NCBI RefSeq assembly: GCF_030551255.1
Contig: NZ_CP130630.1
Coordinates: 1,240,001 to 1,304,000, forward strand
DNA length: 64,000 nt
Source: Streptomyces sp. NL15-2K
GTDB lineage: Bacteria > Actinomycetota > Actinomycetes > Streptomycetales > Streptomycetaceae
Reading direction: 5' to 3'
Positions 34,424 to 63,567 of this stretch are shown in pieces. Made by a program: the position numbers and the translations under genes. The notes under the pieces were generated by a model that was not told where the DNA came from, searched no databases, and worked only from the letters and a program-made list of their open reading frames with translations. How positions within the stretch are numbered: the stretch's first letter is position 1; every line of letters starts with the position of its first letter.

Positions 34424-34453
34424 GGGCCGAACGGCCAGGGCCGGTCGGCCCTG
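34424..34453. promoter_or_regulatory. Pair of GGGCCGnnCGGCCC boxes between osdR and PPDK
   Basis: An imperfect box GGGCCGAACGGCCA (34424-34437) abuts a perfect 18-bp palindrome CAGGGCCGGTCGGCCCTG (34436-34453). They lie 95-112 bases upstream of the osdR start and 187 or more bases upstream of PPDK. Similar boxes recur upstream of other stress genes in this window. Confidence 0.6.
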
Positions 34454-34523
34454 TTTCACCCCCGGCTCCTTCCCCGTACGGCTGCCCGCTCGCCGCACGG
34501 ACGAAAACCGGCCCCGTCGCCGA

Positions 34524-34537
34524 GGGCCGACCGGCCC
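34524..34537. promoter_or_regulatory. Perfect GGGCCGnnCGGCCC box upstream of PPDK
   Basis: GGGCCGACCGGCCC, with perfect 6-bp arms and a 2-base centre, lies 102 bases upstream of the PPDK start codon. It is the second perfect copy in this divergent promoter region. Confidence 0.6.
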
Positions 34538-34639
34538 ACCGGACGGGACGGCCGGCACCTGCCCTGCCGTAGGCATCCGCAGCAGGCTGGAAGCCAAAGG
34601 GCAGAAGAGCCGTGGCACGAGGCCGAGGAGCACTGGGTC

Positions 34640-37329
34640 ATGGTTCGTTACGTGTACGGCTTCACCGAGGGTGGCCGCCACATGGCGGACCTGCTTGGCG
34701 GCAAGGGCGCGAACCTGGCCGAGATGACCCGGCTGGGCCTGCCGGTGCCCCCGGGGTTCATCGTCACCACCGAGGCCTGCCGGGCTTTCCTGGCCACCGG
34801 CGCCGAACCCGAGGGGATGTCCCGGGAGATCTCCCGGCATCTGTCGGCCCTGGAGGCCGCCGCGGGGCGGCTGCTCGGGCAGCCGGACGACCCGCTGCTG
34901 CTGTCGGTGCGCTCCGGGGCGCGCTTCTCTATGCCCGGCATGATGGAGACGGTCCTCGACATCGGCCTGAACGACGACTCCGTCCTCGGCCTGGCCAAGA
35001 CTTCGGGCAGCGAGCGCTTCGCCTGGGACTCCTACCGCCGACTGGTCCAGATGTTCGGCAGCACGGTGATGGGCGTCGACTCGTCTCTGTTCGAGCAGGC
35101 CATCACCCTGCTCAAGGAGGTGCGCGGTGTCGCGGACGACGTACACCTGGATGCCACCGACCTTGCCCAGCTCGTGGAGAGGTACAAGGGCCTGATCGAG
35201 TACGAGACCGGTGAGCACTTCCCGCAGTCCCCCGCCGAGCAGCTGCGCCGGGCCGTCCTCGCCGTCTTCCAGTCCTGGAACGGTGAACGGGCCCGCCTGT
35301 ACCGGCGGCGCGAGCACATACCGGACGACCTCGGCACCGCGGCGTGCAGCGCATGGTGTTCGGCAACCTCGGCGCCGATTCCGGCAGCGGGGTCGCCTTC
35401 ACCCGTGACCCGGCCACCGGGCGGCCCTGTCTGTACGGCGACTACCTGGTCGACGCCCAGGGGGAGGACGTGGTCGCGGGCATCCGCAACACGGTGCCGC
35501 TGACCGACCTGGAGCGGCTGGACCCCGCCTCCTATCTGGAGCTGCGGGCACACATGGAGACCCTGGAGCACCACTACCGGGACCTGTGCGACATCGAGTT
35601 CGCCATCGAGCGCGGGCGTCTGTGGATGCTGCAGACCCGCGTCGGCAAGCGCACCGCCGAGGCCGCCTTCGCCATCGCCGCCGAGCTGGCCGACGAGGGG
35701 CTCATCTCGGTGGACGAGGCCCTGGCCCGGGTGAGCGGGGATGGGCTGGCCCGGCTGATGTTCCCCCGGTTCGACACCTCTGCCGTCGGCGAACCGCTGG
35801 CGCATGGCATTCCGGCTTCGCCTGGTGCCGCCGTTGGAGCGGTGGTGTTCGACTCGGCCGAGGCGGTACGGCGTGCAGCCGCCGGCGAGAAGGTCGTCCT
35901 CGTGCGGCAGGAGACCACCCCGGACGATCTGCCCGGCATGGTCGCCGCCGAGGCCGTGCTCACCAGCCGGGGCGGCAAGACCAGCCACGCGGCCGTCGTC
36001 GCCCGCGGCATGGGCAAGGTCTGCGTGTGCGGCGCCGAGCAGATCACCGTCGACCCACGGGAACGCCGCTTCACCGTGGGCGGCACCACCGTGCGGGAGG
36101 GCGAAGTCGTCTCGGTGGACGGTTCGGCGGGCACCGTGTATCTGGGTGCCGCTCCGCTGGTCGACTCCGCGGTCATGCGCTACCTGGAGACGGGTGCGCA
36201 CGGCGAGCGTTCCGCCCCACTGGTCGACGCGGTGGCGAGGGCCCTGCGACGGGCCGACGACGTACGGCGGCTGGAGGTGCGGGCCAACGCCGACACGCCC
36301 GAGGATGCCGCCCGGGCCCGCCGGTTCGGCGCGCAGGGCGTCGGGCTGTGCCGCACCGAGCACATGTTCCTCGGCGAGCGCCGCAAGCTGGTCGAGGAGA
36401 TGATCCTGGCCCGCGACGACATCGAGCGCGCCCGTGCCCTGGAGGCGCTGCTGCCCCTGCAGCGGCAGGACTTCATCGGCATTCTGGAGGCGATGGACGG
36501 CCTTCCGGTCACCATCCGGCTCCTGGACCCGCCGCTGCACGAGTTCCTGCCCGACCGCACCGAGCTCGCCGTCCGGGTCGCCACCGCCAGCGCCCGGGGA
36601 GAACTGCCGGAGCCGCACGACGTCGAACTGCTGGACGCGGTCAACCGGATGCATGAGGAGAACCCGATGCTCGGCCTGCGCGGCGTGCGCCTGGGCCTGG
36701 TGGTGCCGGGACTGGTCGCCATGCAGGTGCGGGCCGTGGCCGAAGCGGTCGTGGAACGCGTCCGGGCCGGCGGCGACCCGCAGGCGGAGATCATGGTGCC
36801 GCTGGTCGACACGGTCGAGGAGCTCCGCCTGGCACGCGAGGAGGTGGACGCGGTGCTCGCCGAGGTCGGCAAGGCCACCGGCGTCCCCGTCCGGTGCGCG
36901 GTCGGCACGATGATCGAACTGCCCCGGGCGGCGCTGACCGCGGGCCGCATCGCCGAGGAGGCGGAGTTCTTCTCCTTCGGCACCAACGACCTCACCCAGA
37001 CCGTCTGGGGCTTCTCCCGCGACGACGTGGAGGCGGCGTTCTTCTCCGCCTACCTCGACAAGGGCATCTTCGCCACTTCCCCGTTCGAGACGATCGACCG
37101 CGACGGCGTCGGCCGTCTGGTCGAGATCGCGGTCGCCGAGGGCCGGGCCGCGCGTCCGGACCTGAAGATCGGGGTCTGCGGCGAGCACGGCGGCGACCCC
37201 GAATCCGTGCACTTCTTCCACGCAGCCGGCCTGGACTACGTCTCCTGCTCGCCGTTCCGCGTCCCCGTCGCCCGTCTGGAGGCCGGACGAGCCGCGCTGG
37301 AGGGCGCTGGGGACAGCGACAGCAGGTGA
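34640..37329 (+). pseudogene. ppdK: Pyruvate, phosphate dikinase with a 4-nt deletion
   Basis: PPDK interconverts pyruvate and phosphoenolpyruvate with ATP or pyrophosphate. The N-terminal ATP-grasp part starts at ATG 34640 (VYGFTEGGRHMADLLGGKGA) and runs in frame to HIPDDLGTA at about 35338. Four bases are then missing relative to the family's NVQRMVFGN, and the rest continues in another frame from about 35344 to 37329. That part has the phosphohistidine loop GGKTSHAAVVARGMGK and the PEP-binding barrel with GLCRTEHMF, FGTNDLTQTVWG and GVCGEHGG. Both halves look otherwise intact. Unless the sequence is wrong, a full enzyme is not made. OsdR/DosR-type boxes lie upstream. Confidence 0.85.
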
Positions 37330-37386
37330 AGGGGCGGCCCGCCACCCCGCGTCCCATCGGGTCAACGATCACAAGGAATACGGAAC

Positions 37387-37824
37387 ATGACCGACGAAGA
37401 CACCCGCGTCCGGAACGCCCCGAACGCGGTCCGGGTGCGGGCCACGGGGGACGTGGACGACAGGGCACTCGCCTACCTGAGGGAGAAGATCGCCGCCGCC
37501 CTTCACCGGCCGGGGCTGCCGGCCGTCAGCGGCGAGGTCCGACTGGAGCGGGCCGCCGCTCACCACGTCGAACTGCCATGGTCCTGCGGGGCGGAGATCC
37601 GGGTTGGAGCCGACCTGATGGTCGTGCACGCCCGCGAGGCGAGCGCGCGCGAAGTCGCCGACCGGTCGGAGGACCGGCTGCGCAGCCGGGTCGAGCGGAC
37701 CCTGCACCGCACGGACGCGGCCCGCAGGTCGGCGCCGCCGCCGCGGCGGGGCGGCCGGCCCATCGGGCAGCCGTCCCAGGGCTCTGCGGCCCGTGTGGCG
37801 GACAGCGATGAAGCGACGGGCTGA
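37387..37824 (+). CDS. HPF/RaiA-like ribosome hibernation protein, N-terminal domain only
   Basis: This 145-residue protein follows PPDK by 57 bases behind AAGGAAT. Residues 14-105 fit the S30AE fold of hibernation factors: VRVRATGDVDDRALAYLREK, SGEVRLERAAAHHVELPW, then DRSEDRLRSRVERTLHRTDA. Long-form actinobacterial homologues have a second dimerisation domain; here only a basic Arg/Pro-rich tail of about 35 residues follows, so it is shortened. Dormancy-linked HPF proteins silence ribosomes by forming 100S dimers, which the missing domain would provide, so its activity may be altered. Moderately sure. Confidence 0.6.
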   Translation: MTDEDTRVRNAPNAVRVRATGDVDDRALAYLREKIAAALHRPGLPAVSGEVRLERAAAHHVELPWSCGAEIRVGADLMVVHAREASAREVADRSEDRLRSRVERTLHRTDAARRSAPPPRRGGRPIGQPSQGSAARVADSDEATG

Positions 37825-37890
37825 GCGAAGGATCCAGTGGGGTGCCAGGGCAGGCGATGCCCTCGCACCCCACCCGCGAGGAGCAGAGCC

Positions 37891-37950
37891 GTGACATCCC
37901 GCGCCGTCGGCGAAGTCATGACCAGCGAGGTCCTCCGCCGCCAAGCATGA
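37891..37950 (+). pseudogene. Start fragment of a CBS-domain gene
   Basis: GTG 37891 behind GAGGAG opens a 19-codon frame, TSRAVGEVMTSEVLRRQA. This resembles the first residues of the CBS-domain proteins in this locus (VSDVMSETV at 56486). It stops immediately, so only the 5' end survives. Its stop overlaps the next remnant by ATGA. Confidence 0.5.
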
Positions 37951-38100
37951 CCGTCGCAGTGTTCACCGCCTCGGTCATGGGTTTACTCGCCGTCCAGCTC
38001 GCCGCTGTCCACCCCGCTCCCGCGCACACGTCGTGTACATCGGGTTCTCTAGACCGTGGGGCTGATCGCCCTGGGGACAGCAATCCTGGCAGCGGCGTGA
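37947..38100 (+). pseudogene. Remnant of a small membrane protein
   Basis: ATG 37947 opens a hydrophobic segment (AVFTASVMGLLAVQLAAV). In another frame the same stretch ends with TVGLIALGTAILAAA and a stop at 38098-38100. The two membrane segments probably belonged to one small protein that has been frameshifted. Between 37825 and 38155 nothing else is coding. Confidence 0.35.
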
Positions 38101-38103
38101 AAC

Positions 38104-38143
38104 GGCCCGGGTCACCGCCGCCGTCGCGGCGGTGACCCGGGCC
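38104..38143. terminator. Strong bidirectional terminator hairpin
   Basis: Perfect 18-bp arms (38104-38121 and 38126-38143) enclose a 4-base loop, 12 bases before the 3' end of the phosphoketolase gene. It can serve both convergent transcripts. Confidence 0.8.
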
Positions 38144-38155
38144 GGGGCGGGCCGT

Positions 38156-40540
38156 TCAGCCGTCCCAGGTCCAGTCGGCGACCTCGGGGAGGTCGGTGCC
38201 GTGTTCGCGGATCCAGGCATGGTGGCGCAGCCGGGTGTCCTCCATCCGCTGCCGTACGGCAGCGGCACGTACCGCCAGACCGGGCACGCGGTCGATGACG
38301 TCCATGACCAGCCGGTAGCGGTCCAGGTCGTTGCGGACCACCATGTCGAACGGCGTGGTGGTCGTACCGATCTCCTTGTAGCCGCGCACGTGCAGGTGGG
38401 CGTGGCCGGCCCGGCGGTAGGCCAGGCGGTGGATGAGCCACGGGTAACCGTGGTAGGCGAAGATCACCGGCTTGTCGGTGGTGAACAGGGCGTCATGCTG
38501 CGCGTCGGGCATGCCATGCGGGTGCTCCTCGGCGGGCAGCAGCCTCGCCAGGTCGACGACGTTGACGACTCGCACGGCCAGCTCCGGCAGGTCGCGGCGC
38601 AGCAGCTGGGCGGCGGCCAGGACCTCCTGGGTCGGGACGTCGCCCGCAGCGGCCAGCACCACGTCCGGCTCCCGGTCGCCGTCCTCGTTGCTCGCCCAGT
38701 CCCAGATGCCGGCGCCGCGGGCGCAGTGCACCTTGGCCTGTTCCATGGACAGCCAGTCGAAGCAGGGCTGCTTGCCGGCCACGATGACGTTGACGTAGTC
38801 CCGGCTGCGCAGGGCGTGGTCGGCCACGGACAGCAGGGTGTTGGCGTCCGGCGGCAGATAGACCCGGACCACTTCCGGGCTCTTGTTGAGGACGTGGTCG
38901 ACGAAACCGGGGTCCTGGTGGGAGAAGCCGTTGTGGTCCTGGCGCCACACGTGCGAGGTCAGCAGGTAGTTGAGGGAGGCGATCGGGGCGCGCCAGGGCA
39001 GGCGCCGCGTGGTGCGCAGCCACTTGATGTGCTGGTTGGCCATCGAGTCGACGATGTGCACGAACGCCTCGTAGCAGGAGAACAGCCCGTGCCGGCCGGT
39101 CAGCAGGTAGCCCTCCAGCCAGCCCTGGCAGGTGTGTTCGGACAGGATCTCCATCACCCGGCCATGGGCGTCGAGGTGTTCGTCGACCTGGAGCCTCTGG
39201 GCCTGCCATGCCTTGCCGCTGGCCTTGTAGACGGCCTGGAGCCGGTTGGAGGCGGTCTCGTCGGGGCCGACGAGCCGGAAGTCGCGCCGGTCCGCGGTGC
39301 CCCGCATGACGTCCTCCAGCAGGTCGCCGAGGACACGGGTGGGCTCGTGCAGGGTGGCACCCGGCTTGTCGATCTCGACCGCGTACTTCTCCAGCGGCGG
39401 CAGGGGCAGTTCCCGCAGCAGCAGACCGCCGTTGGCGTTCGGGGTCGCGCCCAGGCGCCGGGTGCCCTCAGGGACGCAGGCCAGCACCTGCTCGCGCGGA
39501 CGGCCGTCCTCGTCGAACAGTTCCTCGGGCCGGTACGAGCGCAGCCAGTTCTCGAGTTGGCGCAGGTGGTCGGGGTTGTCCCGGACGGCGGACAGCGGCA
39601 CCTGATGGGAACGCCAGGTGCCCTCCACCGGCACCCCGTCGACCTCGGCCGGCCCGGTCCAGCCCTTCGGGGTGCGCAGCACGACCAGCGGCCAGCGCGG
39701 GCGCTCGGTCGCGCCGTCCTCCCGCGCGGCGCGCTGGAACTCGGCGATCCGGTCCAGAGCGCTGTCCATAGCCTCGGCCATGGCGCGGTGCACGGCCATC
39801 GGGTCGTCGCCGGTGACGTGGATCGGGTCGTGGCCGTAGCCGCGCAGCAGCTCGTCGAGTTCGCCTTCCGGCAGCCGGGCCAGCACCGTCGGGTTGGCGA
39901 TCTTGTAGCCGTTCAGGTGCAGGATCGGCAGGACGGCACCGTCGTGGACGGGGTCGAGGAACTTGTTGGAGTGCCAGGACGCGGCCAGCGGCCCGGTCTC
40001 CGCCTCGCCGTCACCGATGACGCAGGCGACCACCAGGTCCGGGCTGTCGAGGGCGGCTCCGTAGGCGTGCGAGAGGGCGTAGCCCAGTTCGCCGCCCTCG
40101 TGGATGGAGCCGGGCGTCTCGGGCGCCACATGGCTAGGCACGCCGCCGGGGAAGGAAAACTGCCGGAACAGCCGGGCCATGCCGTCGGCGTCCCGGGTGA
40201 TGTCCGGGTAGGTCTCGCTGTACGAGCCTTCCAGCCACGAGTTGGCGAGCACGGCGGGCCCACCGTGGCCAGGGCCCCAGATGCACAGGGCGTCCAGGTC
40301 ACGGGCCTGGATGACACGGTTGAGATGCGTGTGCACCAGGTTCAGGCCCGGGGAGGTGCCCCAGTGCCCGAGCAGCCGCGGTTTGACGTGCTCCGCGCGC
40401 AGCGGCTCGGTCAGCAGGGGATTGGCCATCAGGTAGATCTGGCCGACGGCCAGGTAGTTCGCGGCGCGCCAGTGGGCGTCCAGCGCCCTCAGTTCCTCCT
40501 CGGTGAGCCGGGCGGACGCCTGCTGCGTGTCGACGGACAT
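38156..40540 (-). CDS. Phosphoketolase (xylulose-5-phosphate/fructose-6-phosphate)
   Basis: This 794-residue thiamine-diphosphate enzyme splits xylulose-5-P or fructose-6-P to acetyl phosphate plus a sugar phosphate, giving acetate and ATP without respiration. ATG 40540 follows GGAAGGG. Family segments are present in order: [66 protein letters not shown], the ThDP-binding [20 protein letters not shown], and [20 protein letters not shown]. The length is normal. A GGGCCG-type box lies about 88 bases upstream. With PPDK, PFL and carbamate kinase it supplies substrate-level ATP. Confidence 0.95.
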
Positions 40541-40627
40541 GGGAGATCCCTTCCGGGTCAGGGTGTCGATCGGAGGTACAAGCCGGTCCGTGCCTTCCAC
40601 CATCGGTGACCGGCCGGGTACCCGACA

Positions 40628-40641
40628 GGGCCGACCGGGCC
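40628..40641. promoter_or_regulatory. GGGCCG-type box upstream of phosphoketolase
   Basis: GGGCCGACCGGGCC matches the locus consensus GGGCCGnnCGGCCC except at one position. It lies 88 bases upstream of the phosphoketolase start, at a spacing similar to the other boxes. Confidence 0.45.
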
Positions 40642-40661
40642 ACCCTTGGTGCCTGGGAGCG

Positions 40662-41178: not shown

Positions 41179-41213
41179 GGGCCAGTTGGTCCCTCCTCGG
41201 CCGGAGACCGGCC
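41179..41213. promoter_or_regulatory. Two palindromes upstream of the PNPOx gene
   Basis: GGGCCAGTTGGTCC (41179-41192) is a weaker version of the locus box. GGCCGGAGACCGGCC (41199-41213) is a 15-bp palindrome with 6-bp arms and a 3-base centre. They lie 77-111 bases upstream of ATG 41102. Confidence 0.4.
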
Positions 41214-42456: not shown

Positions 42457-42915
42457 ATGGTTGCGCGGACCGGCGTTTTCGGCGCCATGACCAACGAGCA
42501 TCGCGAGCAGCTCATGTCACTCGCTCGTGAGACGTCGTTCGCGGCAGGCGAGCGCATCTTCAACGAGGGCGGCAAGGCCGACCGCTTCTGGATCATCGGC
42601 ACGGGCATGGTCGCTCTCGACCTTCATGTGCCCGGCCGACGCGCAGCGGTCATCGAGACCCTGGGCGCCGGAAGACTCCTGGGCTGGTCCTGGCTCGTCC
42701 CTCCCCATCACTGGCACCTGGGGGCCGAGGCCACCAGCTCGGTGCGTGCCTCCGAGTTCGACGCGGCGGCGGTTCGTGAGCTGTGCGCGAAGAACCCGGG
42801 GCTGGATCACGAACTGTGTACCTATGTCGTCGGCGTACTCGCGCGCCGGCTCAGGTCCGCCCGGGTGCGACTGCTCCACCTCTACGCGCCCTACGGTGCG
42901 GGCGAGGTCCCCTGA
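42457..42915 (+). CDS. Cyclic nucleotide-binding domain protein without DNA-binding domain
   Basis: This 152-residue protein is a single Crp-like cNMP-binding barrel: FAAGERIFNEGGKADRFWII, VPGRRAAVIETLGAGRLLGW, SSVRASEFDAAAVREL. There is no C-terminal helix-turn-helix. ATG 42457 follows AGGGG. It is a close paralogue of the gene at 55981, and both are followed by a CBS-BON gene, so the pair has been duplicated as a unit. Confidence 0.85.
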   Translation: MVARTGVFGAMTNEHREQLMSLARETSFAAGERIFNEGGKADRFWIIGTGMVALDLHVPGRRAAVIETLGAGRLLGWSWLVPPHHWHLGAEATSSVRASEFDAAAVRELCAKNPGLDHELCTYVVGVLARRLRSARVRLLHLYAPYGAGEVP

Positions 42916-43798: not shown

Positions 43799-44293
43799 GT
43801 GAGTTGGCTGCATCATGACGCCCCACCGGGTCTCTTCGAGCAACGCGGGCGTCTGTCCGATGTCGCCAAGGCGGGGGCTGTGACGGCCGAGGAGCTCATG
43901 ACCACCCCCGCGATCATGGTCCATCCTGATGTCACCTTGGCCCAGACGGCCAGGATCATGGCGGTCAGGCACGTGAAGCGTCTGCCCGTGGTCGACGACA
44001 TCGGCATGCTCCAGGGCATCGTCAGCCGTGCCGATCTGTTGAAGGTCTTCCTGCGGTCGGACCAGGACATCGAGGAGGAGGTGCGCCGCACGGTAGTGTC
44101 CTACCTCTTCCCGGCCTTCAGCCACGCCATCCACGTGAACGTGCACGAGGGAGTCGTCACCCTCCGTGGACACCTTTGCGATACTTCGCTCATCTCCGTT
44201 GCTGTGCGCCTCGTACGGTCCGTCGTCGTGGAGGTCGAACCCCACCTCACCGGCGAGTCCACCCCTCCGACCGGACCGGGGCACGCGCGGTGA
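43799..44293 (+). pseudogene. 3' part of the split CBS-BON protein gene
   Basis: From about 43847 (RLSDVAKAGAVTAEELMTTP) this frame aligns with residue 73 onward of the intact CBS-BON protein at 56486: second CBS motif (ARIMAVRHVKRLPVVDD, GIVSRADLLKVFLRSD) and a BON domain (HVNVHEGVVTLRGHLCDTSL). The first CBS domain is on the other side of the hsp20 gene. A GTG at 43799 could still start a 164-residue protein with one CBS plus BON, so expression is possible. Confidence 0.7.
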
Positions 44294-45638: not shown

Positions 45639-45747
45639 GTACATAGATGCTGGGGCCACTGTGTCCGCTCCGCCGGTAGCCGTGGGCGCAGCGCCGTCGT
45701 GTTCACCCGATCGGGGCGGGTGGGTGAGTAAGGGAAGCCGAGGGGTC

Positions 45748-46089
45748 GTGTCCGTTCCGCTGTACCAGGCCAAGGCCGAGTTCTTCCGGATGCTGGGGCA
45801 TCCCGTCCGGATAAGGGTGCTGGAACTGCTGCAGGACGGTCCGAAGCCGGTGCGGAACCTTCTGGCGGAGATCGAGGTGGAGCCGTCCGGCCTGTCCCAG
45901 CAGCTGGCGGTGCTGCGCCGCTCCGGAATCGTGACCTCGCAGCGGGAGGGCTCGACGGTCGTCTACGCACTGGCCGGCGGAGATGTCGCCGACCTGATGC
46001 GGGCCGCGCGCCGGATCCTGACCGAGATGCTCGCGGGCCGGAACGAGCTGCTGGCCGAGCTGCGGGAAGCCGAGGTCGCCCCGCGATGA
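45748..46089 (+). CDS. ArsR-family winged-helix regulator
   Basis: This protein of about 113 residues has the ArsR fold: LYQAKAEFFRMLGHPVRIRV, PSGLSQQLAVLRRSGIVTSQ, REGSTVVYALAGG. It has no CxC metal site. It is followed with an ATGA overlap by a SulP transporter, an arrangement in which the regulator controls the transporter. GTG 45748 matches the length of the related regulator at 49660. GTG 45724 is also possible. Confidence 0.82.
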   Translation: MSVPLYQAKAEFFRMLGHPVRIRVLELLQDGPKPVRNLLAEIEVEPSGLSQQLAVLRRSGIVTSQREGSTVVYALAGGDVADLMRAARRILTEMLAGRNELLAELREAEVAPR

Positions 46090-49478: not shown

Positions 49479-49659
49479 CCGGCTCAGCGGGGGTCTGTCT
49501 CCCGTTCGGCGCGAGTCACCACCGTGCCGAAGGCAGTCCGAGTTCGGCCGTCCCGGAGCCGCGCGCGAGGATGGTCCGCATGTTGCTGACGAGGTGGACG
49601 CGATGCTCCGGGGTCCGGCCGACGGGGCCGCGCTGTTGTGCCCGGGAGGGGACGGCACT

Positions 49660-50010
49660 ATGAGTACGCCGCTGTACCAACTGAAGGCCGAGTTCTTCAA
49701 GACGCTCGGGCACCCGGCCCGCATCCGCGTGCTGGAGCTGCTGAGCGAGCGGGAGCACGCGGTCGCGGAGATGCTGCCCGAGGTCGGCATCGAGCCGGCG
49801 CATCTGTCCCAGCAACTGGCCGTGCTGCGCCGAGCCAACCTGGTCGTGAACCGCAAGGAGGGCTCGCACGTGTACTACTCCCTCACCAGCCCGCACGTCG
49901 CCGAGCTGCTCCGGGTCGCCCGCACCATCCTGTCCGGCGTCCTGGCCGGGCAGGCCGAGCTGCTGGCCGACTTGGAGGCCGCGCAGGGGGAGGCGAAACC
50001 GCCGTCATAG
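49660..50010 (+). CDS. ArsR-family winged-helix regulator (second copy)
   Basis: This 116-residue protein starts at ATG 49660 behind GGGAGGGG. LYQLKAEFFKTLGHPARIRV and PAHLSQQLAVLRRANLVVNR are close to the ArsR protein at 45748, so the two are paralogues about 4 kb apart. It has no cysteine-based metal site. No transporter follows; it is convergent with pflA. Confidence 0.82.
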   Translation: MSTPLYQLKAEFFKTLGHPARIRVLELLSEREHAVAEMLPEVGIEPAHLSQQLAVLRRANLVVNRKEGSHVYYSLTSPHVAELLRVARTILSGVLAGQAELLADLEAAQGEAKPPS

Positions 50011-50048: not shown

Positions 50049-50795
50049 TCACAGTGCCCGCAGGCCGTGCTCCCGGAACTGCTCGCGGACGCGCTCCGTC
50101 AGGTCCGGATCGGGGGTCGGGGTGTCGCGCAGCGGGAAGGGGATGCCGAGCGCGTCGTACTTGTGGGCGCCGAGCTTGTGGAACGGCAGAACGTCCACGC
50201 GGTCGACGTTGCCGAGTCCGGCGAGGAACGCGCCGAGGCTGTCGACGGCTGCCGGGTCGTCGGTCCAGCCGGGCACGAGGACGTAGCGGATCCACATCGG
50301 GACGCCGATCCGGTCCAGGCGGGTGGCGAAGTTGAGGGTCGGGGAGAGTTCGCCTCCGGTCAACTTCCGGTAGATGCGGACATCGAAGGACTTGATGTCC
50401 AGCAGGACCAGGTCGGTGTCGGCGAGAAGCTCGTCGGTGGCGCGGGCGCCGAGGAAGCCGGAGGTGTCGAGGGCGGTGTGCAGGCCGGCCTCCTTGCAGC
50501 GGCGCAGCACCTCGCCGGTGAAGGCGGACTGGAGCAGCGGCTCGCCGCCCGTGATGGTCACCCCGCCACCGGCCGTGGTGAGGAAGGCCCGGTACTCGTC
50601 GATCTCGGTCATGACCTCGTCCACCGTGGCCTGCTTGCCGTCGCGCATGTGCCAGGTGTCCGGGTTGGCGCAGTACAGGCAGCGCAGCGGGCAGCCGCTG
50701 ACGAAGAGGACGAACCGGGTCCCGGGACCGTCCACTCCCGTGGACAGGTCCCAGGAGTGGATCCGGCCCGTCACCGGTTCGGTCGTGGTGTTCAC
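50049..50795 (-). CDS. pflA: Pyruvate formate-lyase activating enzyme (radical SAM)
   Basis: This 248-residue enzyme installs the glycyl radical on PFL. The [4Fe-4S] cysteines are C35, C39 and C42 in [11 protein letters not shown]. The SAM-binding GGG motif is [17 protein letters not shown] 50795 overlaps the pflB stop as GTGA, so the two are translated together. Confidence 0.95.
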
Positions 50796-53050
50796 AGCGA
50801 TCCGTGGAAGGTGCGGCTGATCACGTCAAGCTGCTGCTCGCGGGTCAGGCGGACGAAGTTGACGGCGTATCCGGAAACCCTGATCGTCAGCTCCGGGTGC
50901 TTCTGCGGGTGTTCCATGGCGTCCTCCAGGGTCGCCCGGTCCAGGACGTTGACGTTCATGTGGAAGCCGCCCGAGGCCATGTAGGCGTCGAGGATGCCGA
51001 CCAGGTGGCCCGGCCGCTCGTCCGGGTTGTGCCCCAGTCCCTCGGGGGTGATCGTCGTGGTCAGCGAGATGCCGTCCCGGGCCTCCTCGTACGGCAGTTT
51101 CGCCACCGAGAGGGCGGAGGCGGCCACGCCGTGGCGGTCGCGGCCGTTCATCGGGTTGGCGCCGGGCGCGAAGGGCTCCCCGGCACGGCGGCCGTCGGGG
51201 GTGTTGCCGGTGTGCTTGCCGTACACCACGTTGGAGGTGATGGTCAGCACCGACTGGGTGTGCTCGGCATTGCGGTAGGTGGGGTGGCGGCGAACCTTGG
51301 TCATGAAGGACTTCAAGAGGTCGACGGCGATGGAGTCGACCCGGTCGTCGTTGTTGCCGTACGCCGGGAACTCCCCCTCGGTCCCGTAGTCGACGGCCAG
51401 CCCGTTCCCGTCCCGGATCACCTTCACGCGGGCGTGCTTGACGGCGGAGAGGCTGTCGGCGGCCACCGACAGGCCGGCGATCCCGCAGGCCATGTAGCGG
51501 TACACCGGGTGGTTGTGCAACGCCATCTCGATGCGCTCGTAGGCGTACTTGTCGTGCATGTAGTGGATGACGTTGAGCGTGTTGACGTACGTGGCCGCCA
51601 GCCAGTCCAGCATGCGGTCGTACGCGGCCGACAGCTCCCCGTACTCCAGGTACTCGCCGGTCAGGGCGGGCGCCTCGGGCGCGATCTGTTCGCCGGTCAT
51701 CTCGTCCCGGCCGCCGTTGATCGCGTACAGCAGCGCCTTGGCGAGGTTGACGCGGGCGCCGAAGAACTGCATCTGCCGGCCCACCGTCATCGCGGAGACG
51801 CAGCAGGCGATCGCGGTGTCGTCGCCGGTGCGCGGGCGCAGCAGGTCGTCGGACTCGTACTGCACGGCGCTGGTGTCGATCGACACGCGGGCGCAGAACT
51901 CCTTGAACCCGGACGGCAGTTGGGGTGACCACAGCACGGTCAGGTTGGGCTCCGGGGCCGGGCCGAGGTTGTACAGCGTCTGCAGGAAGCGGAAGGAGGT
52001 TCGGGTGACCAGTGTGCGCCCGTCGCCGCCGATGCCGCCGATGGACTCCGTCACCCAGGTCGGGTCGCCGGAGAACAGCGCGTCGTACTCCGGGGTGCGC
52101 AGGAACCGTACGATCCGCAGCTTGATCACGAAGTCGTCGATCAGCTCCTGGGCGCGCGTCTCGTCGAGGGTGCCCTCGTCCAGGTCGCGCTGGAGGTAGA
52201 CGTCCAGGAAGGTGGAGGTGCGGCCGAGCGACATCGCGGCGCCGTTCTGCTCCTTCACGGCGGCCAGGAAGCCGAGGTAGAGCCACTGCACGGCCTCGTG
52301 GGCGGTGGCGGCGGGGCGGGAGACGTCGCAGCCGTACCAGGCCGCCATCTCCGCCAGTTCACCCAGCGCCCGTATCTGCTCGGCCAGTTCCTCGCGGTCG
52401 CGGATGACGTCCGGGCTGGAGAGCCGCGCGTCCAGCACAGCACGCTCGGCCTGCTTGGACTCGATCAGCCGGTCGGTGCCGTACAGCGCGACGCGCCGGT
52501 AGTCGCCGATGATCCGGCCACGGCCGTACGCGTCGGGCAAGCCGGTGATGATGCCCGCCTTGCGGGCGGCGCGCATCTCAGGGGTGTAGGCGTCGAAGAC
52601 GCCGTCGTTGTGGGTCTTGCGGTAGGTGCCGAAGACGCGTGTCACGAAGGGGTCGGCCTTGTAGCCGTACGCCTCCAGACTGTTCTCGACCATCCGCAGC
52701 CCGCCGTTGGGCATGATGGCCCGCCGCAGCGGGGCATCGGTCTGCAGGCCCACGATCAGCTCCCGGTCGCGGTCGATGAAGCCCGGCCGGTGCGAGGTGA
52801 TGGTGGACGGAGTGCCCGGGTCTACGTCGAAGATCCCCTTGAGCCGCTCGTCGGGGAAGTGCGCGCTGACCTTGCGCCAGACCGTGAGGGTGCGCTCGGT
52901 CGGACCGGCCAGGAACGCCGAGTCGCCCTCGTACGGCGTGTAGTTGGCCTGGATGAAGTCGCGTACGTCGATGCGGTCGCGCCAGCGTGTCCCGGCGAAG
53001 CCTCGCCATGCCTCGGCCCTTCGGCTGCCAACTGTCACCGTCGTGGTCAT
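50792..53050 (-). CDS. pflB: Pyruvate formate-lyase (formate acetyltransferase)
   Basis: This 752-residue glycyl radical enzyme converts pyruvate and CoA to acetyl-CoA and formate. The catalytic pair C416-C417 lies in AIACCVSAM, and the radical glycine is G727 in RVSGYAV. The start is taken at ATG 53050 ([19 protein letters not shown]); 14 extra in-frame codons upstream lack support. PFL is destroyed by oxygen, so it can act only under strict hypoxia. A perfect GGGCCGnnCGGCCC box lies 122 bases upstream. Confidence 0.96.
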
Positions 53051-53171
53051 CGCCGGATGTCCTCTCCCTGGTCGCATTCGTTCGTTTCTCACTGCCGATA
53101 CTTGTCTTCCGCCGTGCTTGCGGGCAGTGCCGGACAGGCCTGTGAACGGTGCCGTCCGTCCCCGGGCCGTA

Positions 53172-53185
53172 GGGCCGTTCGGCCC
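53172..53185. promoter_or_regulatory. Perfect GGGCCGnnCGGCCC box upstream of pflB
   Basis: GGGCCGTTCGGCCC has perfect 6-bp arms and lies between the carbamate kinase stop and the pflB start, 122 bases from the latter. It is identical to the box upstream of the flavohaemoglobin gene. Confidence 0.6.
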
Positions 53186-53206
53186 ACCGGCCCGCCCTGA
53201 CGGACC

Positions 53207-54330: not shown

Positions 54331-55239
54331 TCAGGCATGCGGTACGACTGCGACGGGGCAGCCGATGTGATGCAGCGCCGCGTGCGTCACGGGACCGATG
54401 TGGGTGCCGAGGCGGCCGTCCCGTGTACGGCGACCCACGACCACGAGGGAGGCACCGGACGACGCGCGCACCAGTGCGGTGGCCGCCCTGCCTTCGGAGA
54501 CGGACTCGGTCACGGAGACGTCGGGGAACTTCTCGCACCACGGACGCAGCGTCGCGACGACGGCACGTTCCTGTGCCGCGAGAATCTCCGGACCGGATCC
54601 TGTGACCGCGTGAAGGTCGCCGCCGTCGGCCGACGGAACGCTGAAGGCGTGGATCACGTGCAGGCCGGCGCCGTAGCGGTGGGCGGCCTCGAAGGCGAAC
54701 TCGATCAGTTCGTCACAAGGGCGCCGGGTGTCCAGCCCGAGGACGACATCGCGGAACGGGATCTCCGGAATTTCATCCGGCGAGACACCGCCGGATACCG
54801 GAAGGTGCTCGTCGGCGGAAGCCTCGCCCGCGCGGACAAGCACCACAGGGCGCTCGGACCTGGCGACGACCCGCTGGGACACGGAGCCGATGATGAACCC
54901 CGCGACTCCTCTGAGTCCGCGGGAGCCGAGTACCAACAGCTGCGCCTCCTCGGCTGCCGCGAGCAGGGCGGCGACCGCGGAGTCGGGCACCAGCCGGTCG
55001 ACGATCCGCAGCCCGGGGTGCGCGGCACGGACGCTGCCGACTGCTCGGTCCAGGGTCTGCTGGGCCCACTCGCGCTCGCTGAGTTCCGCGGGTACGGACG
55101 AGGCCGGGCGAGGGTGCCACTTCCAGGCCTGCACGAGCCGCAACGAGGCTCCGCGACGCAGGGCTTCCCGGGCCGCCCAGTGCGCGGCCGCGAGACTCTC
55201 GGTGGAACCGTCGACACCTGCGGTGATGTGGCGAAGCAT
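54331..55239 (-). CDS. Universal stress protein, tandem UspA domains
   Basis: This 302-residue protein starts at ATG 55239 behind GGAGGAGG. Domain 1 runs from ITAGVDGSTESLAAAHWAAR to the ATP loop LVLGSRGLRGVAGFIIGSVS. Domain 2 runs from DVVLGLDTRRPCDELIEFAF to VVVGRRTRDGRLGTHIGPVT. Both keep the G-x2-G-x9-G-S/T nucleotide motif. A 202-bp MITE-like element separates it from a box-bearing upstream region. Confidence 0.92.
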   Translation of the reverse strand: MLRHITAGVDGSTESLAAAHWAAREALRRGASLRLVQAWKWHPRPASSVPAELSEREWAQQTLDRAVGSVRAAHPGLRIVDRLVPDSAVAALLAAAEEAQLLVLGSRGLRGVAGFIIGSVSQRVVARSERPVVLVRAGEASADEHLPVSGGVSPDEIPEIPFRDVVLGLDTRRPCDELIEFAFEAAHRYGAGLHVIHAFSVPSADGGDLHAVTGSGPEILAAQERAVVATLRPWCEKFPDVSVTESVSEGRAATALVRASSGASLVVVGRRTRDGRLGTHIGPVTHAALHHIGCPVAVVPHA

Positions 55240-55476: not shown

Positions 55477-55510
55477 TTCGAGCGTTGTGCAGGAACGGCT
55501 TTGCGCGAAG

Positions 55511-55544
55511 GGGCCGTACAGCCCCTTCGTGGACCTTTCGGCCC
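55511..55544. promoter_or_regulatory. Two GGGCCG-type boxes displaced by the MITE
   Basis: GGGCCGTACAGCCC (55511-55524, one mismatch, within GAAGGGGC/GCCCCTTC arms) and GGACCTTTCGGCCC (55531-55544, perfect right arm). Without the 202-bp element they would lie about 70-100 bases upstream of the USP start, the spacing seen at other genes. Confidence 0.45.
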
Positions 55545-55853: not shown

Positions 55854-55909
55854 GGGCCCATGGGCTCTCATCGGGTACCGGGCGGCCCGGCCATGGGGCC
55901 GGGTGGCCC
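55854..55909. promoter_or_regulatory. Divergent promoter with two GGGCC-type boxes
   Basis: GGGCCCATGGGCTC (55854-55867) is 69 bases upstream of the small membrane protein. GGGCCGGGTGGCCC (55896-55909, one mismatch) is 72 bases upstream of the cyclic-nucleotide-binding gene. Each divergent gene thus has its own candidate box. Confidence 0.45.
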
Positions 55910-55980
55910 ATGGCCCGGTACGGGCGACGGGGACAGGCTGGACGTAGCAGGTACGAACGCCCCTGAGCGGAGGCACGTCA

Positions 55981-56444
55981 TGAACGCTCCCCCCACGGCC
56001 GGCATGCTGCGGGCGCTGCCCGCAGAGCACCGGCACCGGTTGATGCAGTTCGCCCGGGAGGTGTCGTTCCCCCAGGGAACCCGTCTCTTCGAAGAGGGCC
56101 GGCGTGCGGACCGGTTCTGGATCATCCGCACCGGCACCGTTGCCCTCGACATGCACGTGCCCGGGCGCCGCGCGGCCGTCATCGAGACCCTCGGACACAA
56201 CGAACTCGTCGGCTGGTCCTGGCTGTTCGCGCCGCACACCTGGCACCTGGGCGCCGAGGCGACCAGTCCCGTGCGGGCGTACGAGTTCGACGCCACCGCG
56301 ATCCGTTCGCTGTGCCAGGACGATCCCGCACTCGGTCAGAGCGTCGCCCAGTGGGTCGGCGACGTCCTCGCCCACCGCCTGCGCTCGGCCCGCACCCGGC
56401 TGCTGGACCTGTACGCGCCATACGGCAGCGGCAGCCTCCTGTGA
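55981..56444 (+). CDS. Cyclic nucleotide-binding domain protein (second copy)
   Basis: This 154-residue single cNMP-binding barrel starts at ATG 55981 behind GGAGG. VSFPQGTRLFEEGRRADRFW, HVPGRRAAVIETLGHNELVG and SPVRAYEFDATAIRSL closely match the copy at 42457. It has no DNA-binding domain. It is followed 41 bases later by an intact CBS-BON gene, as the other copy is by the split one. Confidence 0.87.
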
Positions 56445-57169: not shown

Positions 57170-57404
57170 ACGAGCTTCTGCGATCGCCTCCAGAGACAAC
57201 GAGAGCCACGGCGGGAGACCAGCCGAACCCGAGTGGCAGGCGACGCGGGCCTCAGGCAGAACTGAGGCCGACCATCCGCCGGCTCGCGCACCGCCGCCTT
57301 TGCGGTACCGATCGGCGCGGACACCAGCTCCTCGTGACCGTCCGTCCACCACCGACACCTCGGCCCTCGGCATACCACCCGCTGCCCTCATCCGTAGGAC
57401 TTCC

Positions 57405-57545: not shown

Positions 57546-57687
57546 GGCCCGCAGTGGGCATGCCGAGTGCGGGAGGTCAAGGATCCGCCCGCCACGGTGC
57601 GCGGGTGCGCGGAGGTCAGTACGGTGCTGTCCTGGCATTCGACCTGGGCGTGGTGGCTCCCTCTGGTCATCGAGCGGTGGAGGCGGC

Positions 57688-58491: not shown

Positions 58492-58516
58492 TCGACCTGT
58501 TCAGCCGGTCCCTGTC

Positions 58517-60420: not shown

Positions 60421-60436
60421 GATGTCTTCTCCTCGT

Positions 60437-60472
60437 GAGTCGATGAGTCGATGAGTCGATGAGTCGATGAGT
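60437..60472. repeat. 8-bp tandem repeat between USP and alcohol dehydrogenase genes
   Basis: GAGTCGAT is repeated four times exactly with a partial fifth unit. It occupies most of the 62-base gap just before the ribosome site of the alcohol dehydrogenase. Copy-number change would alter the spacing between the two genes. Confidence 0.85.
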
Positions 60473-60482
60473 AGCGGCAGCG

Positions 60483-61388
60483 TCAGTCGTGCGCGATGAC
60501 GGCGACGGGTGCAGTGGAATGGTGCAGGACGGCGTGAGTGACCGGGCCGATGTGGGCGCCGAGCGCGCTGCGGCGGATGCGACGGCCCACGACGACGAGG
60601 GAGGCCTCGCGCGAGGCGTCGACCAGCTGGACGGCGGGGCTGCCCCATCCAGACTCCTCGACCACCTCGACGGCCGGGTACTTCTCCTTCCAGCGGTGCA
60701 GAACCTCGGCCAGCGCGGCCGCCTCTTGCTTGCCCAGCTCGGTGCTGAGCTGGGGGTCGGCTTGCAGGCCGTAGGCGAAGTACGGCGGGGGGTTCCAGGC
60801 GTGGACGACCCGCAGGGGTGTGACCCGACGGGCGGCCTCCTCGAAGGCGAAGGTGATCACCGTGTCGTCGGGGCTTTCGGTGTCGAGGCCGAGCACGACG
60901 GGCCGGAACGGGGTCGCCGCGGACGGGATGCCGGCCGGGTCCATGGCGTGCTCGTCGGCGGCCTGCTCCCCCGCCCGCACAAGGACCACGGGAACCTCGG
61001 TGTGGGCAACGACGTCCTGGCTCACGGAGCCGACCAGGAACCCTCCGAGTCCGCTCAGCCCGCGGGAGCCGAGGACCAGGAGTTCGGCATCCTGGGCCAC
61101 GCGCGTCAGCACCTCGCCGGGACCGCCGTCGACGTGGTCCACGGTCACGTCCAGGCCGGGATGACGCAGGCGGAGTCCCTCGGCGGCCTCGCGCGGGATG
61201 CGCTCGCTCCAGTGCTGCTGGGTCTCGGCACCGAGCAGCGGAGCCTGCGCCATGGGCTGCGGAACGGGCTCCCAGACGTGCACCAGCCGCAGGGGAAAAC
61301 CGCGCAACTTCGCCTCGCGGGCCGCCCACTCGGCAGCGGCACCGCTCTCTGACGAGCCGTCGAGGCCCACGGTGACGGTGCGGGACAT
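60483..61388 (-). CDS. Universal stress protein, tandem UspA domains
   Basis: This 301-residue protein starts at ATG 61388 behind GGAGG. It has VTVGLDGSSESGAAAEWAAR, LVLGSRGLSGLGGFLVGSVS, VVLGLDTESPDDTVITFAFE and VVVGRRIRRSALGAHIGPVT. It heads the USP-ADH-USP operon. A GGGCC-type box lies 84 bases upstream. It is related to the genes at 54331 and 30780. Confidence 0.93.
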   Translation of the reverse strand: MSRTVTVGLDGSSESGAAAEWAAREAKLRGFPLRLVHVWEPVPQPMAQAPLLGAETQQHWSERIPREAAEGLRLRHPGLDVTVDHVDGGPGEVLTRVAQDAELLVLGSRGLSGLGGFLVGSVSQDVVAHTEVPVVLVRAGEQAADEHAMDPAGIPSAATPFRPVVLGLDTESPDDTVITFAFEEAARRVTPLRVVHAWNPPPYFAYGLQADPQLSTELGKQEAAALAEVLHRWKEKYPAVEVVEESGWGSPAVQLVDASREASLVVVGRRIRRSALGAHIGPVTHAVLHHSTAPVAVIAHD

Positions 61389-61471
61389 ACTGTCCACCTC
61401 CTGAATCGGGGTTCTGATCTCAGGATGTGGGCGGGGAGAAAGACCGTGCAGAGGCCGCAGGTCCCGACCGA

Positions 61472-61485
61472 GGGCCAATGGGCCC
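61472..61485. promoter_or_regulatory. GGGCC-type box upstream of the USP-ADH-USP operon
   Basis: GGGCCAATGGGCCC matches the locus box except at the two inner arm bases. It lies 84 bases upstream of the USP start, similar to the other boxes. Confidence 0.4.
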
Positions 61486-61632
61486 CATGGGGTCAGAGGC
61501 TTCCGGCACAGCAGTGCCCGCGATGCCCGCCGGGGGCCGGGCATGGTCGCTGCCCGACGCGTCGAAGGGGAGGGCTGAACCGGGAGACGATGCCCTCGCG
61601 GGCCGTTCGGCATCTCCCGGGCGGCCAGGGCG

Positions 61633-61654
61633 CGAAGGATCCTGAGATCCTTCG
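61633..61654 (+). promoter_or_regulatory. Hairpin just before the SulP ribosome site
   Basis: CGAAGGATC-CTGA-GATCCTTCG, a 9-bp stem with a 4-base loop, ends five bases before the AAAAGGAGG ribosome site of the SulP gene at 61669. It may regulate translation or be a terminator of upstream transcription. Confidence 0.4.
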
Positions 61655-61668
61655 GCAAAAGGAGGATC

Positions 61669-63381
61669 ATGTCCCAGAGCTCTGGCCGCCATGCTCCACC
61701 ATGGCGCCGCATGATGCCCGGACTCGGGACACTGCTCGGCTACCGGCGCTCGTGGCTGAAGGGCGACGTGCTGGCCGGGGTGACCGTCGCCGCGTACCTC
61801 GTCCCGCAGGTGATGGCCTACGCGGGCGTGGCCGGCCTGCCGCCGGTCGCCGGCCTGTGGGCGATCCTGCCCGCCCTCGCCCTGTACGCCCTGCTCGGCA
61901 CTTCCCGCCTCCTCTCGGTCGGCCCGGAGTCCACGACCGCGCTGATGACGGCAACGGTCGTCGGTCCGCTCGCAGCCGGTGATCCGGCCCGGTACGCGAC
62001 GCTGGCGGCCACGCTCGCGATCACGGTCGGTCTCCTCTGCGTGGCGGCATGGGCGATGCGACTCGGCTTCGTCGCCGACCTGCTCTCCCGTCCCGTCCTG
62101 ATCGGCTATCTGACAGGCGTGGCGCTGATCATGATCGTGGACCAGCTACCCAAACTCACCGGCGTCCGCACGACAGGCTCGGCCTTCTTCCCCCAACTGT
62201 GGTCCTTTGCGGGCCACTTGTCGCGGGCCCATCCGGCCACGGTGGTGTTCTCCGCCGTGATGATCGCGGTCCTTTTCACGACGGCGCGCTTCTTTCGCAC
62301 GGTTCCCGGGCCTCTGCTCGCCGTGGTGTTCGGCACCGCGGCCGTGGTGGTCTTCGACCTCGACGACCGGTACGGCCTCAAGGTGATCGGTGACGTCCCG
62401 TCGGGCCTGCCCGGCGCGGCCGTGCCGGACCTCACCGACCTGCCGCACCTGATCCTCCCCGCCCTGGGAGTCGTCCTCGTCGGCTACACCGACTTCGTCC
62501 TCACCGCACGGGCCTTCACGCGGCGTGACGAGGAGGGTCCCGGGCTCGACGCCAACCAGGAGTTCCTGGCCCTGGGCGCGGCCAACCTGGGCGCCGGTGC
62601 GCTGCACGGATTCCCGGTGAGCAGCAGCGCCAGCCGCACCGCGCTCGCCTCCTCCGCCGGCGCCCGCAGCCAGGCGTACTCGCTGATCGCCGGAGCGGTG
62701 GTCCTCGCGGTCCTGCTCTTCCTCAGCCCTCTGCTGACCCGCACCCCTTCGGCCGTCCTCGGGGCGCTCGTGGTGTACGCCGCCGTCCGCATGATCGATC
62801 TGGCGGGCTTCCGGCGACTGGCGTCCTTCCGCCGCCGGGAACTCCTGCTGGCGCTCGGCTGCCTCGCCGGGGTACTGGCCCTGGACATCCTGTACGGGGT
62901 ACTGGTCGCCGTCGGCCTGTCCGTGGCCGAGCTGCTCACCCGGGTGGCCCGCCCGCACGACGCCGTCGAGGGCCTGGTGCCCGGCATGGCCGGCATGCAC
63001 GATGTCGACGACTACCCCCAGGCCAGCACCATCCCGGGCCTCCTGGTCTACCGCTACGACTCCCCTCTCTTCTTCGCCAACGCGGAGAACTTCCGCCGCC
63101 GGGCGCTGGCCGCCGTCGACGAACAGACCAGCCCCGTCCGCTGGTTCGTCCTCAACACCGAGGCCAACGTCGAGGTCGACATCACCGCCTTGGACGCCGT
63201 CGACGAACTCCGCCGCGAACTCACCGAGCGCGGCATCGTCTTCGCCCTCGCCCGCGTCAAGCAGGACCTGCTGGACGACCTGACGGCGTACGGCCTCGCG
63301 GACACCGTCGGCAGCGAGCGGATCTTCCCCACCCTGCCGACGGCCGTGGCCGCGTACCGGAAGTGGTGCCGCGACCAGTAG
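61669..63381 (+). CDS. SulP-family anion transporter with STAS domain (second copy)
   Basis: This 570-residue membrane protein starts at ATG 61669 behind AAAAGGAGG. It has GDVLAGVTVAAYLVPQVMAY, LLSVGPESTTALMTATVVGP, FPVSSSASRTALASSAGARS and a C-terminal STAS domain (YRYDSPLFFANAENFRRRAL, NVEVDITALDAVDELRRELT). It differs clearly from the copy at 46086, so it is a separate subfamily with probably another anion. No regulator is adjacent. Confidence 0.93.
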   Translation: MSQSSGRHAPPWRRMMPGLGTLLGYRRSWLKGDVLAGVTVAAYLVPQVMAYAGVAGLPPVAGLWAILPALALYALLGTSRLLSVGPESTTALMTATVVGPLAAGDPARYATLAATLAITVGLLCVAAWAMRLGFVADLLSRPVLIGYLTGVALIMIVDQLPKLTGVRTTGSAFFPQLWSFAGHLSRAHPATVVFSAVMIAVLFTTARFFRTVPGPLLAVVFGTAAVVVFDLDDRYGLKVIGDVPSGLPGAAVPDLTDLPHLILPALGVVLVGYTDFVLTARAFTRRDEEGPGLDANQEFLALGAANLGAGALHGFPVSSSASRTALASSAGARSQAYSLIAGAVVLAVLLFLSPLLTRTPSAVLGALVVYAAVRMIDLAGFRRLASFRRRELLLALGCLAGVLALDILYGVLVAVGLSVAELLTRVARPHDAVEGLVPGMAGMHDVDDYPQASTIPGLLVYRYDSPLFFANAENFRRRALAAVDEQTSPVRWFVLNTEANVEVDITALDAVDELRRELTERGIVFALARVKQDLLDDLTAYGLADTVGSERIFPTLPTAVAAYRKWCRDQ

Positions 63382-63553
63382 ACCGCCCCGGGAACCAGAC
63401 TCCGCAGCGCGCCGCTCGCGAGGTGCCTGGAGAGGACGCCGCCGTCGGCGATCACCCGGCACAGTGGCGGCGGACAGGGCTGTCGGGCGGTCGCCCGGGC
63501 GCCGTACGGCCCTGTGGCACAGCAGGTGGCGGGGCCGATGTTCCCGAACCATG

Positions 63554-63567
63554 GGGCCGTTCGGCCC
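63554..63567. promoter_or_regulatory. Perfect GGGCCGnnCGGCCC box upstream of the flavohaemoglobin gene
   Basis: GGGCCGTTCGGCCC lies 121 bases upstream of ATG 63688, at nearly the same distance as the identical box upstream of pflB. The surrounding 306-base gap (63382-63687) holds nothing else recognisable. Confidence 0.6.

Follow-up and report, generated by a model that had tools for sequence, protein, structure and literature searches.

Predicted operator sites around osdR in the window

The analysed DNA (the window) is a stretch of 64,000 nucleotides from the genome of Streptomyces sp. NL15-2K. It encodes an OsdR/DevR-type response regulator (OsdR1) and a sensor kinase, together with pyruvate phosphate dikinase (PPDK), a phosphoketolase, pyruvate formate-lyase, universal stress proteins (USPs), a protein with a cyclic-nucleotide-binding (cNMP) domain, and a flavohaemoglobin (Table 1). 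A palindrome, GGGCCGNNCGGCCC, recurs in this region. Very probably the regulator encoded at 33649-34341 uses it as its operator, and the genome has two OsdR islands, of which one is in the window. The strong copies have exact positions, are clustered and intergenic, are conserved upstream of osdR and of several targets in relatives, and co-occur with the regulator.

Among solved structures, the best match of OsdR1 was DevR of Mycobacterium tuberculosis (3c3w, E = 7.7e-80), with which it aligned over residues 13-222. The base-contacting residues of DevR (K179, K182, and N183; PMC5861037) were kept in 82 of 82 OsdR sequences, including those of the window and of the second island, and the OsdR of locus L076 carries KTIKN with the same three contact residues. 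The first GAF domain of the sensor kinase aligned with the GAF-A chains of DosT and DevS, and its HHPPM stretch aligned with YHPPM of the DevS GAF-A domain. This DevS/OsdK-like kinase is the predicted cognate partner of OsdR1. A genome search with it (E ≤ 1e-20) gave no second full-length match, and two other proteins matched its first GAF domain only.

Perfect copies of GGGCCGNNCGGCCC were located at 34438, 34524, 53172, and 63554 and one-mismatch copies at 34424, 40628, 55511, and 55896, which agrees exactly with the coordinates in an earlier reading of the window from its letters alone (the original prediction). Dinucleotide shuffles of the window (n = 100) contained a mean of 0.09 perfect copies and at most one, and none of them reached four. 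The rate outside both islands (32 perfect copies in about 12.29 Mb) corresponded to 0.17 copies per 64 kb, with a Poisson P of 3e-5 for four copies; the expectation of about 0.3 given previously was therefore of the right order of magnitude. Information was lost rapidly on loosening the pattern, as 12 matches with at most one mismatch were observed against 3.5 expected and 66 matches with at most two mismatches against 46.5 expected. Of the looser copies that had been predicted, the one at 61472 has two mismatches, and those at 41179 and 55854 have more than two. Further one-mismatch copies were found at 2814, 3107, 37748, and 63499, the last of which (63498-63513) is a good copy missing from the earlier list.

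The motif is not new: GGGCCGNNCGGCCC, compared as a sequence, is the core of the 16-nt consensus AGGGCCGATCGGCCCT, which Urem et al. (2016) obtained from the regions upstream of osdR orthologues in 12 species and used to scan S. coelicolor (PMC5069765). OsdR binding was confirmed there by electrophoretic mobility shift assay, and it was reduced by single substitutions and abolished by five substitutions in the site (PMC5069765). What was read from the letters alone is a real operator that had already been published.

A symmetric matrix was built from 25 distinct sites in Table 1 of PMC5069765, all from another species (S. coelicolor), and a score of at least 13 was taken as a strong site. Eight strong sites were found in 33401-64000 (30.6 kb) and none in the remainder of the window, and nine were found in the 46.1-kb core of the second island, compared with four in twenty 20-kb control stretches of the same genome (400 kb). 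The copies at 41179 (7.3), 55854 (7.3), 55896 (5.4), and 34424 (9.5) scored in the background range, and the first three were rejected as operators.

When each open reading frame (ORF) was given its longest form, four of the eight strong sites in the window (34437, 34523, 61471, and 63553) fell inside the N-terminal stretch of an ORF; with starts revised by ribosome-binding sites, all eight were intergenic (non-coding fraction 0.30, P = 7e-5). The revision was made by a simple script, and single site-to-start distances (Table 1) may therefore move by some codons. The placement in promoter gaps, as originally claimed, was borne out for the strong sites. Distances were 127 and 182 bases at flavohaemoglobin and 128 at pflB (about 101 when an alternative ATG is taken as its start), and the distance of 278 at the USP gene at 54331 fell outside the claimed range of 70-125. 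The copy at 40628 lies downstream of the PNPOx-like gene rather than upstream of it, and the sites ascribed to the PNPOx-like and cNMP-domain genes are too weak to count; only the copies at 55854 and 55896 are directly upstream of the latter.

The 16-bp palindrome is present upstream of both osdR and PPDK (34437 and 34523), as in the published OsdR regulon. In S. coelicolor, CGGGCCGACCGGCCCT is listed at -102 of SCO0208 (PPDK) (PMC5069765), and in the window the end of AGGGCCGACCGGCCCA likewise falls at -102 relative to the PPDK start codon.

Table 1. Predicted operator sites (with matrix scores) and genes of the OsdR island in the window; distances are in bases from the site centre to the revised start
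Feature	Position	Strand	Remarks
osdK-like sensor kinase (GAF, GAF, HisKA_3, HATPase_c)	31687-33405	-	Pfam; downstream of osdR1 on the same strand
osdR1, DevR/OsdR-type response regulator (receiver + LuxR/GerE)	33649-34341	-	Pfam PF00072, PF00196; OsdR tree position
Predicted OsdR site AGGGCCGGTCGGCCCT, score 20.7	34437-34452		103 upstream of osdR1 ATG
Predicted OsdR site AGGGCCGACCGGCCCA, score 17.3	34523-34538		109 upstream of PPDK ATG (34640)
Pyruvate phosphate dikinase (PPDK)	34640-37329	+	Pfam on the two pieces separately; divergent from osdR1
Xylulose-5-P/fructose-6-P phosphoketolase	38156-40540	-	Pfam XFP
Site AGGGCCGACCGGGCCA, score 13.6	40627-40642		94 upstream of phosphoketolase ATG (40540); doubtful OsdR target
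Radical SAM protein, probably pflB activase	50049-50795		Next after pflB; Pfam PF04055
Pyruvate formate-lyase pflB, glycyl radical enzyme	50792-53050	-	Pfam PF02901, PF01228
Predicted OsdR site AGGGCCGTTCGGCCCA, score 18.4	53171-53186		128 upstream of pflB ATG (53050)
Universal stress protein, tandem USP domains	54331-55239	-	Pfam PF00582; ribosome-binding-site start
Predicted OsdR site GGGGCCGTACAGCCCC, score 13.8	55510-55525		Between divergent USP (ATG 55239) and cNMP-domain gene (ATG 55980)
Cyclic-nucleotide-binding domain protein	55980-56444	+	Pfam PF00027
Universal stress protein, tandem USP domains	60483-61388	-	Pfam PF00582; ribosome-binding-site start
Predicted OsdR site AGGGCCAATGGGCCCC, score 13.1	61471-61486		90 upstream of USP ATG (61388)
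Predicted OsdR site GGCGCCGTACGGCCCT, score 14.6	63498-63513		182 upstream of flavohaemoglobin
Predicted OsdR site GGGGCCGTTCGGCCCC, score 18.3	63553-63568		127 upstream of flavohaemoglobin ATG (63688)
Flavohaemoglobin (globin + FAD + NAD domains)	63688-64000, on to 64902 past window end	+	Pfam

The second island and OsdR in relatives

Of the 43 perfect copies in the whole genome (12.4 Mb, 3 contigs), four were in the window, seven were in a second island on the same contig (9,699,776-9,742,474, 8.4 Mb from the window), and 32 were elsewhere. The spacer was AT, AC/GT, or AA/TT in 10 of the 11 island copies versus one of the 32 others (Fisher P = 6e-8), a grouping that was picked after the sites had been seen. 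A distinct site preference for each island was considered; the spacers of the two islands look alike.

Island 2 encodes an OsdR paralogue (OsdR2) that is 75% identical to OsdR1, along with an uninterrupted PPDK frame, Hsp20, USPs, CBS-BON proteins, an alcohol dehydrogenase, and a PatA-type protein, and several of its genes are behind strong sites. With revised starts, eight of the nine strong sites in its core were outside genes. No full-length OsdK-like kinase was found near OsdR2 in the genome search (E ≤ 1e-20). A USP gene cluster is present around osdR: of 43 USP-domain matches in the genome (fragments included), the window accounted for 11, the 100 kb surrounding island 2 for 21, and the rest of the genome for 11, so that 32 were in or around the islands. 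No nitrate reductase or nitrate transport gene was detected by Pfam among 30 ORFs of the window, 39 ORFs of island 2, and the flavohaemoglobin, which are not all the ORFs, and no genome-wide search was made.

Two other features of island 2 were recorded. A GAF-SpoIIE phosphatase-type protein is encoded at 9731063-9732388 of the contig, just downstream of a CBS-BON gene carrying a perfect OsdR site; its GAF domain is 47% identical to the first GAF domain of OsdK, and it is a possible sensor phosphatase of the regulon. The D, catalytic, and I subunits of a V/A-type ATPase are encoded at 9722056-9728592.

The best 80 of 585 stretches with an osdR relative were retrieved, and a strong site was found within 300 bp upstream of osdR in 67 of them, compared with 4 of 2000 random 330-bp windows. 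These loci (1.53 Mb) contained 135 perfect motifs versus seven reversed controls. In three sets of ten genomes, matches to GGGCCGAHCGGCCC numbered 27 where OsdR was absent, 61 where only the distant core type was present, and 116 where a close OsdR was present, and its reversed control gave 65, 53, and 66; absence means no match at E ≤ 1e-75 (10 of 11 such genomes were used), and the 30 genomes were chosen from a match table of 121. Across genomes, the motif accompanies the regulator.

A match to OsdR at E ≤ 1e-75 was obtained in 110 of 121 Streptomyces genomes; 82 had at least one match of at least 320 bits, and 38 had at least two. The idea that duplicate islands are peculiar to this strain was thus rejected, and in species with two or more OsdRs the deletion of one osdR gene may reveal less than the full regulon. 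In a tree of 82 OsdRs, whose bootstrap had not settled, OsdR2 was placed in a clade of 22 (support 100/99) and OsdR1 elsewhere. Flanks of 10 kb first suggested an orphan OsdR2 clade without a kinase; as a general claim this was rejected because OsdK lies 9.5-13.5 kb from a 77-78% identical OsdR in G102, G103, and G105, whose OsdRs are not among the 82 of the tree. The present genome does fit an orphan OsdR2, with its single full OsdK in the window, and in 11 of the 38 genomes with at least two close OsdRs (≥320 bits), OsdRs outnumbered full OsdK matches (≥500 bits) in a tally made from hand-copied rows.

A third OsdR-like class (the core class, about 66-70% identity), accompanied by a kinase of about 45% identity to OsdK, occurred in many genomes, was the sole class in G013, G029, and G088, for example, and was absent from the present genome at E ≤ 1e-75. 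As a guess, this class may be the counterpart of SCO3818, the second regulator partnered by OsdK in S. coelicolor (PMC5069765). OsdR relatives were also carried by 14 Streptomyces plasmid records, including large plasmids (e.g., 927 kb and 841 kb), and by Rhodococcus plasmids (about 65% identity). Plasmids are a plausible route for extra OsdR copies.

Predicted targets and the PatA-like protein

Candidate targets were evaluated by scanning 300 bp upstream of homologues with the published matrix, using the 30 best of 45 (pflB), 106 (phosphoketolase), 35 (PatA-like), and 90 (flavohaemoglobin) genomes with a match, our own included. Because related species are non-independent samples, these tallies are counts and not clean probabilities. 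A site scoring at least 13 was found in one of 210 control promoters of this genome. For pflB, 13 of 30 loci reached 13 and 22 of 30 reached 10. A site of at least 13 was observed for the PatA-like gene in 22 of 30 genomes, including this one, and for flavohaemoglobin in 15 of 22 members of the close class (≥72% identity) versus none of eight members of the distant class, which is a useful internal control. These counts in relatives suggest pflB, the island flavohaemoglobin, and the PatA-type acetyltransferase as predicted targets beyond the published table; all three, as well as phosphoketolase (a doubtful target), are outside Table 1 of PMC5069765.

The S. coelicolor flavohaemoglobin has been reported to be under NsrR (PMC4766573). 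A second flavohaemoglobin, 56% identical to that of the island, is encoded elsewhere in the present genome, and the island flavohaemoglobin looks like a separate OsdR-linked class. In literature searches, which covered subscription journals thinly, neither a second OsdR island nor these targets were named among the top matches. The operator and its regulator are known, and what is added here is the twin islands, their frequent occurrence across the genus, and a few new candidate targets. Pyruvate formate-lyase, flavohaemoglobin, and a protein acetyltransferase are new in the predicted regulon. This extension is relevant to the 'anaerobic paradox': streptomycetes are unable to grow without oxygen yet carry anaerobic genes (PMC5069765).

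The PatA-like protein of island 2 contains a GNAT domain (PF00583) at residues 69-169, followed by acyl-CoA-synthetase-like domains (PF13380, PF13607, and PF13549), and it is a predicted protein lysine acetyltransferase. It has one formal acetyl-CoA-loop match (RVIGLA at residue 99), which is no proof of activity. Its architecture differs from that of Rv0998 of M. tuberculosis. As in SlPatA of Streptomyces lividans, its GNAT domain is N-terminal and precedes a large part resembling acyl-CoA synthetases, and the Gly-Pro-Ser collagen-like run described for SlPatA (PMC4053389) was not found in it. A fixed linkage of PatA with osdR was rejected, as PatA was within the fetched flanks of only five of 80 osdR loci; four of these five had an upstream site scoring at least 14, and the fifth was cut at the locus end.

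In M. tuberculosis, Rv0998 is stimulated by cAMP and acetylates K182 of DosR, and the acetyl-mimic K182Q showed almost no DNA binding (PMC5861037). A speculative and rather improbable extension is that OsdR would drive the PatA-type acetyltransferase through the conserved operator and that the enzyme would acetylate the K182-equivalent lysine of OsdR, ending the hypoxic response. It builds on the conserved operator (22 of 30 genomes), on the domain architecture, and on the lysine shared by all 82 OsdRs. One OsdK and one acetylation brake could then serve the two paralogous OsdR islands of this strain.

Proposed circuit, competing explanations and neighbouring genes

By analogy with OsdKR of S. 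coelicolor and DevS/DosT-DevR of M. tuberculosis, the GAF kinase of the window would sense low oxygen, NO, or the redox state and would phosphorylate OsdR1 and probably OsdR2 as well. Phosphorylated OsdR would bind the palindromes in this strain, in most cases some 90-130 bases ahead of the start codon, and would presumably activate osdR itself, PPDK, the USPs, pyruvate formate-lyase with its activase, and flavohaemoglobin, with phosphoketolase at most a possible target. OsdR2 of island 2 would be served by the OsdK of the window, acting across the islands.

OsdKR of S. coelicolor (SCO0203/SCO0204) has the same operator, osdR beside osdK, an autoregulatory site, and a USP-rich neighbourhood (PMC5069765), and the present genome differs in having two islands and a second OsdR. 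SCO3818, with which OsdK partners in addition to OsdR, is a precedent for a single kinase shared by two or more response regulators (PMC5069765); OsdR2 here is a 75% identical paralogue of OsdR1 within an OsdR island. The alignment of OsdR1 with DevR, the kept contact residues, and the GAF-A alignment are shared with the DevR/DosR system and its kinases DevS and DosT, and the host differs in being a soil bacterium. The motif found here is GC-richer than that of M. tuberculosis DevR, and the target genes are largely other ones.

Several observations weigh against the assignment of the palindrome to OsdR. The islands were located through the motif itself, which makes the window-level P values post hoc. 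Fairer tests are provided by the published matrix and by the relatives. The genome contained 43 perfect copies versus 36 of the reversed control, so the refutation originally proposed, an equal density genome-wide, received a mixed answer: global enrichment is absent and the clustering is strong, with 11 of 43 copies in the two islands. Of the 32 non-island copies, 11 were examined, and three scored at least 13, two of them in likely coding frames. One strong site of island 2 (9728231) is inside a V-ATPase subunit gene. PPDK of the window occupies two overlapping frames (34640-35503 and 35344-37329, overlapping at 35344-35503) and is therefore frameshifted as sequenced. No upstream site of at least 13 was found in 13 of the 80 osdR relatives, one of which (L051) has just 22 upstream bases. 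Strong pflB and patA sites occur in G022, a fragmented assembly of 240 contigs with no close OsdR.

Phosphoketolase adds to these points. Its upstream site reached 13 in only seven of 30 loci, our own included, at a frequency of two of six genomes without a close OsdR and five of 24 with one. Two of the seven sites are in genomes with no OsdR at E ≤ 1e-75 (G018 and G106, loci L169 and L166); the site therefore does not follow the regulator, and the sites in these two genomes are either relics or read by another regulator. The enzyme was not upheld as a footprinted OsdR target, and rechecking demoted it to doubtful and left the odds of the OsdR assignment unchanged. The regulon postulated in the original prediction is supported in that the motif is the published operator, the regulator is DevR-like, and the motif follows it across genomes; phosphoketolase is a doubtful member.

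Among the competing explanations, two insulated systems, with OsdR1 acting on the window and OsdR2 on the second island, are unlikely. Each island has its own OsdR and its own PPDK, and OsdR1 and OsdR2 are placed apart in the tree; however, the same operator is present in both islands, both proteins have an identical 16-residue recognition stretch, and the genome has one full OsdK only.

It is very unlikely that the sites belong to another NarL/LuxR-type regulator, such as the core OsdR-like class or another paralogue. In its favour, OsdR1 has 49 matches in this genome, itself included (E ≤ 1e-20; 150 of 203 candidates scored), OsdK is stated to have SCO3818 as another partner (PMC5069765), genomes with only the core class were intermediate in motif count, and two genomes without OsdR retain the phosphoketolase site. 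Against this, the next match by score after OsdR1 and OsdR2 was only 42% identical (169 versus 340 bits), the core class is absent from this genome at E ≤ 1e-75, the sites are upstream of osdR itself in most relatives, and published OsdR binds such sites (PMC5069765).

The least credible view, that the palindromes are chance by-products of 71% G+C DNA or functionless low-level repeats, accounts for the 32 perfect copies outside the islands, the spread of one- and two-mismatch copies over the window, and a total close to the reversed control, but it is refuted for the strong sites by the shuffles, the two-island clustering, the intergenic placement of all eight, the spacer bias, and the conservation in relatives; it is kept for 41179, 55854, 55896, and most scattered copies with a CC/GG spacer.

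Other genes of the window were also noted. A USP gene with an internal stop is present at 30777-31484 (+), and the cNMP-domain (42457-42915, 152 aa) and CBS-BON (43799-44293, 164 aa) copies are shorter than their island-2 relatives (212 and 225 aa, with 82% and 87% identity, respectively). These are signs of decay of the window island. Two ArsR-type regulators (45661-46089 and 49594-50010, 52% identical) bracket SulP transporter, PNPOx-like, and PhnA-type genes, which makes another small stress-like cluster between the OsdR sites. At the start of the window, one giant ORF reaches 8936 (-) and its neighbour lies upstream of the window; the two (3227 and at least 3843 aa) share 47% identity, have similarity to an AMP-binding enzyme as well, and probably encode a non-ribosomal peptide synthetase.

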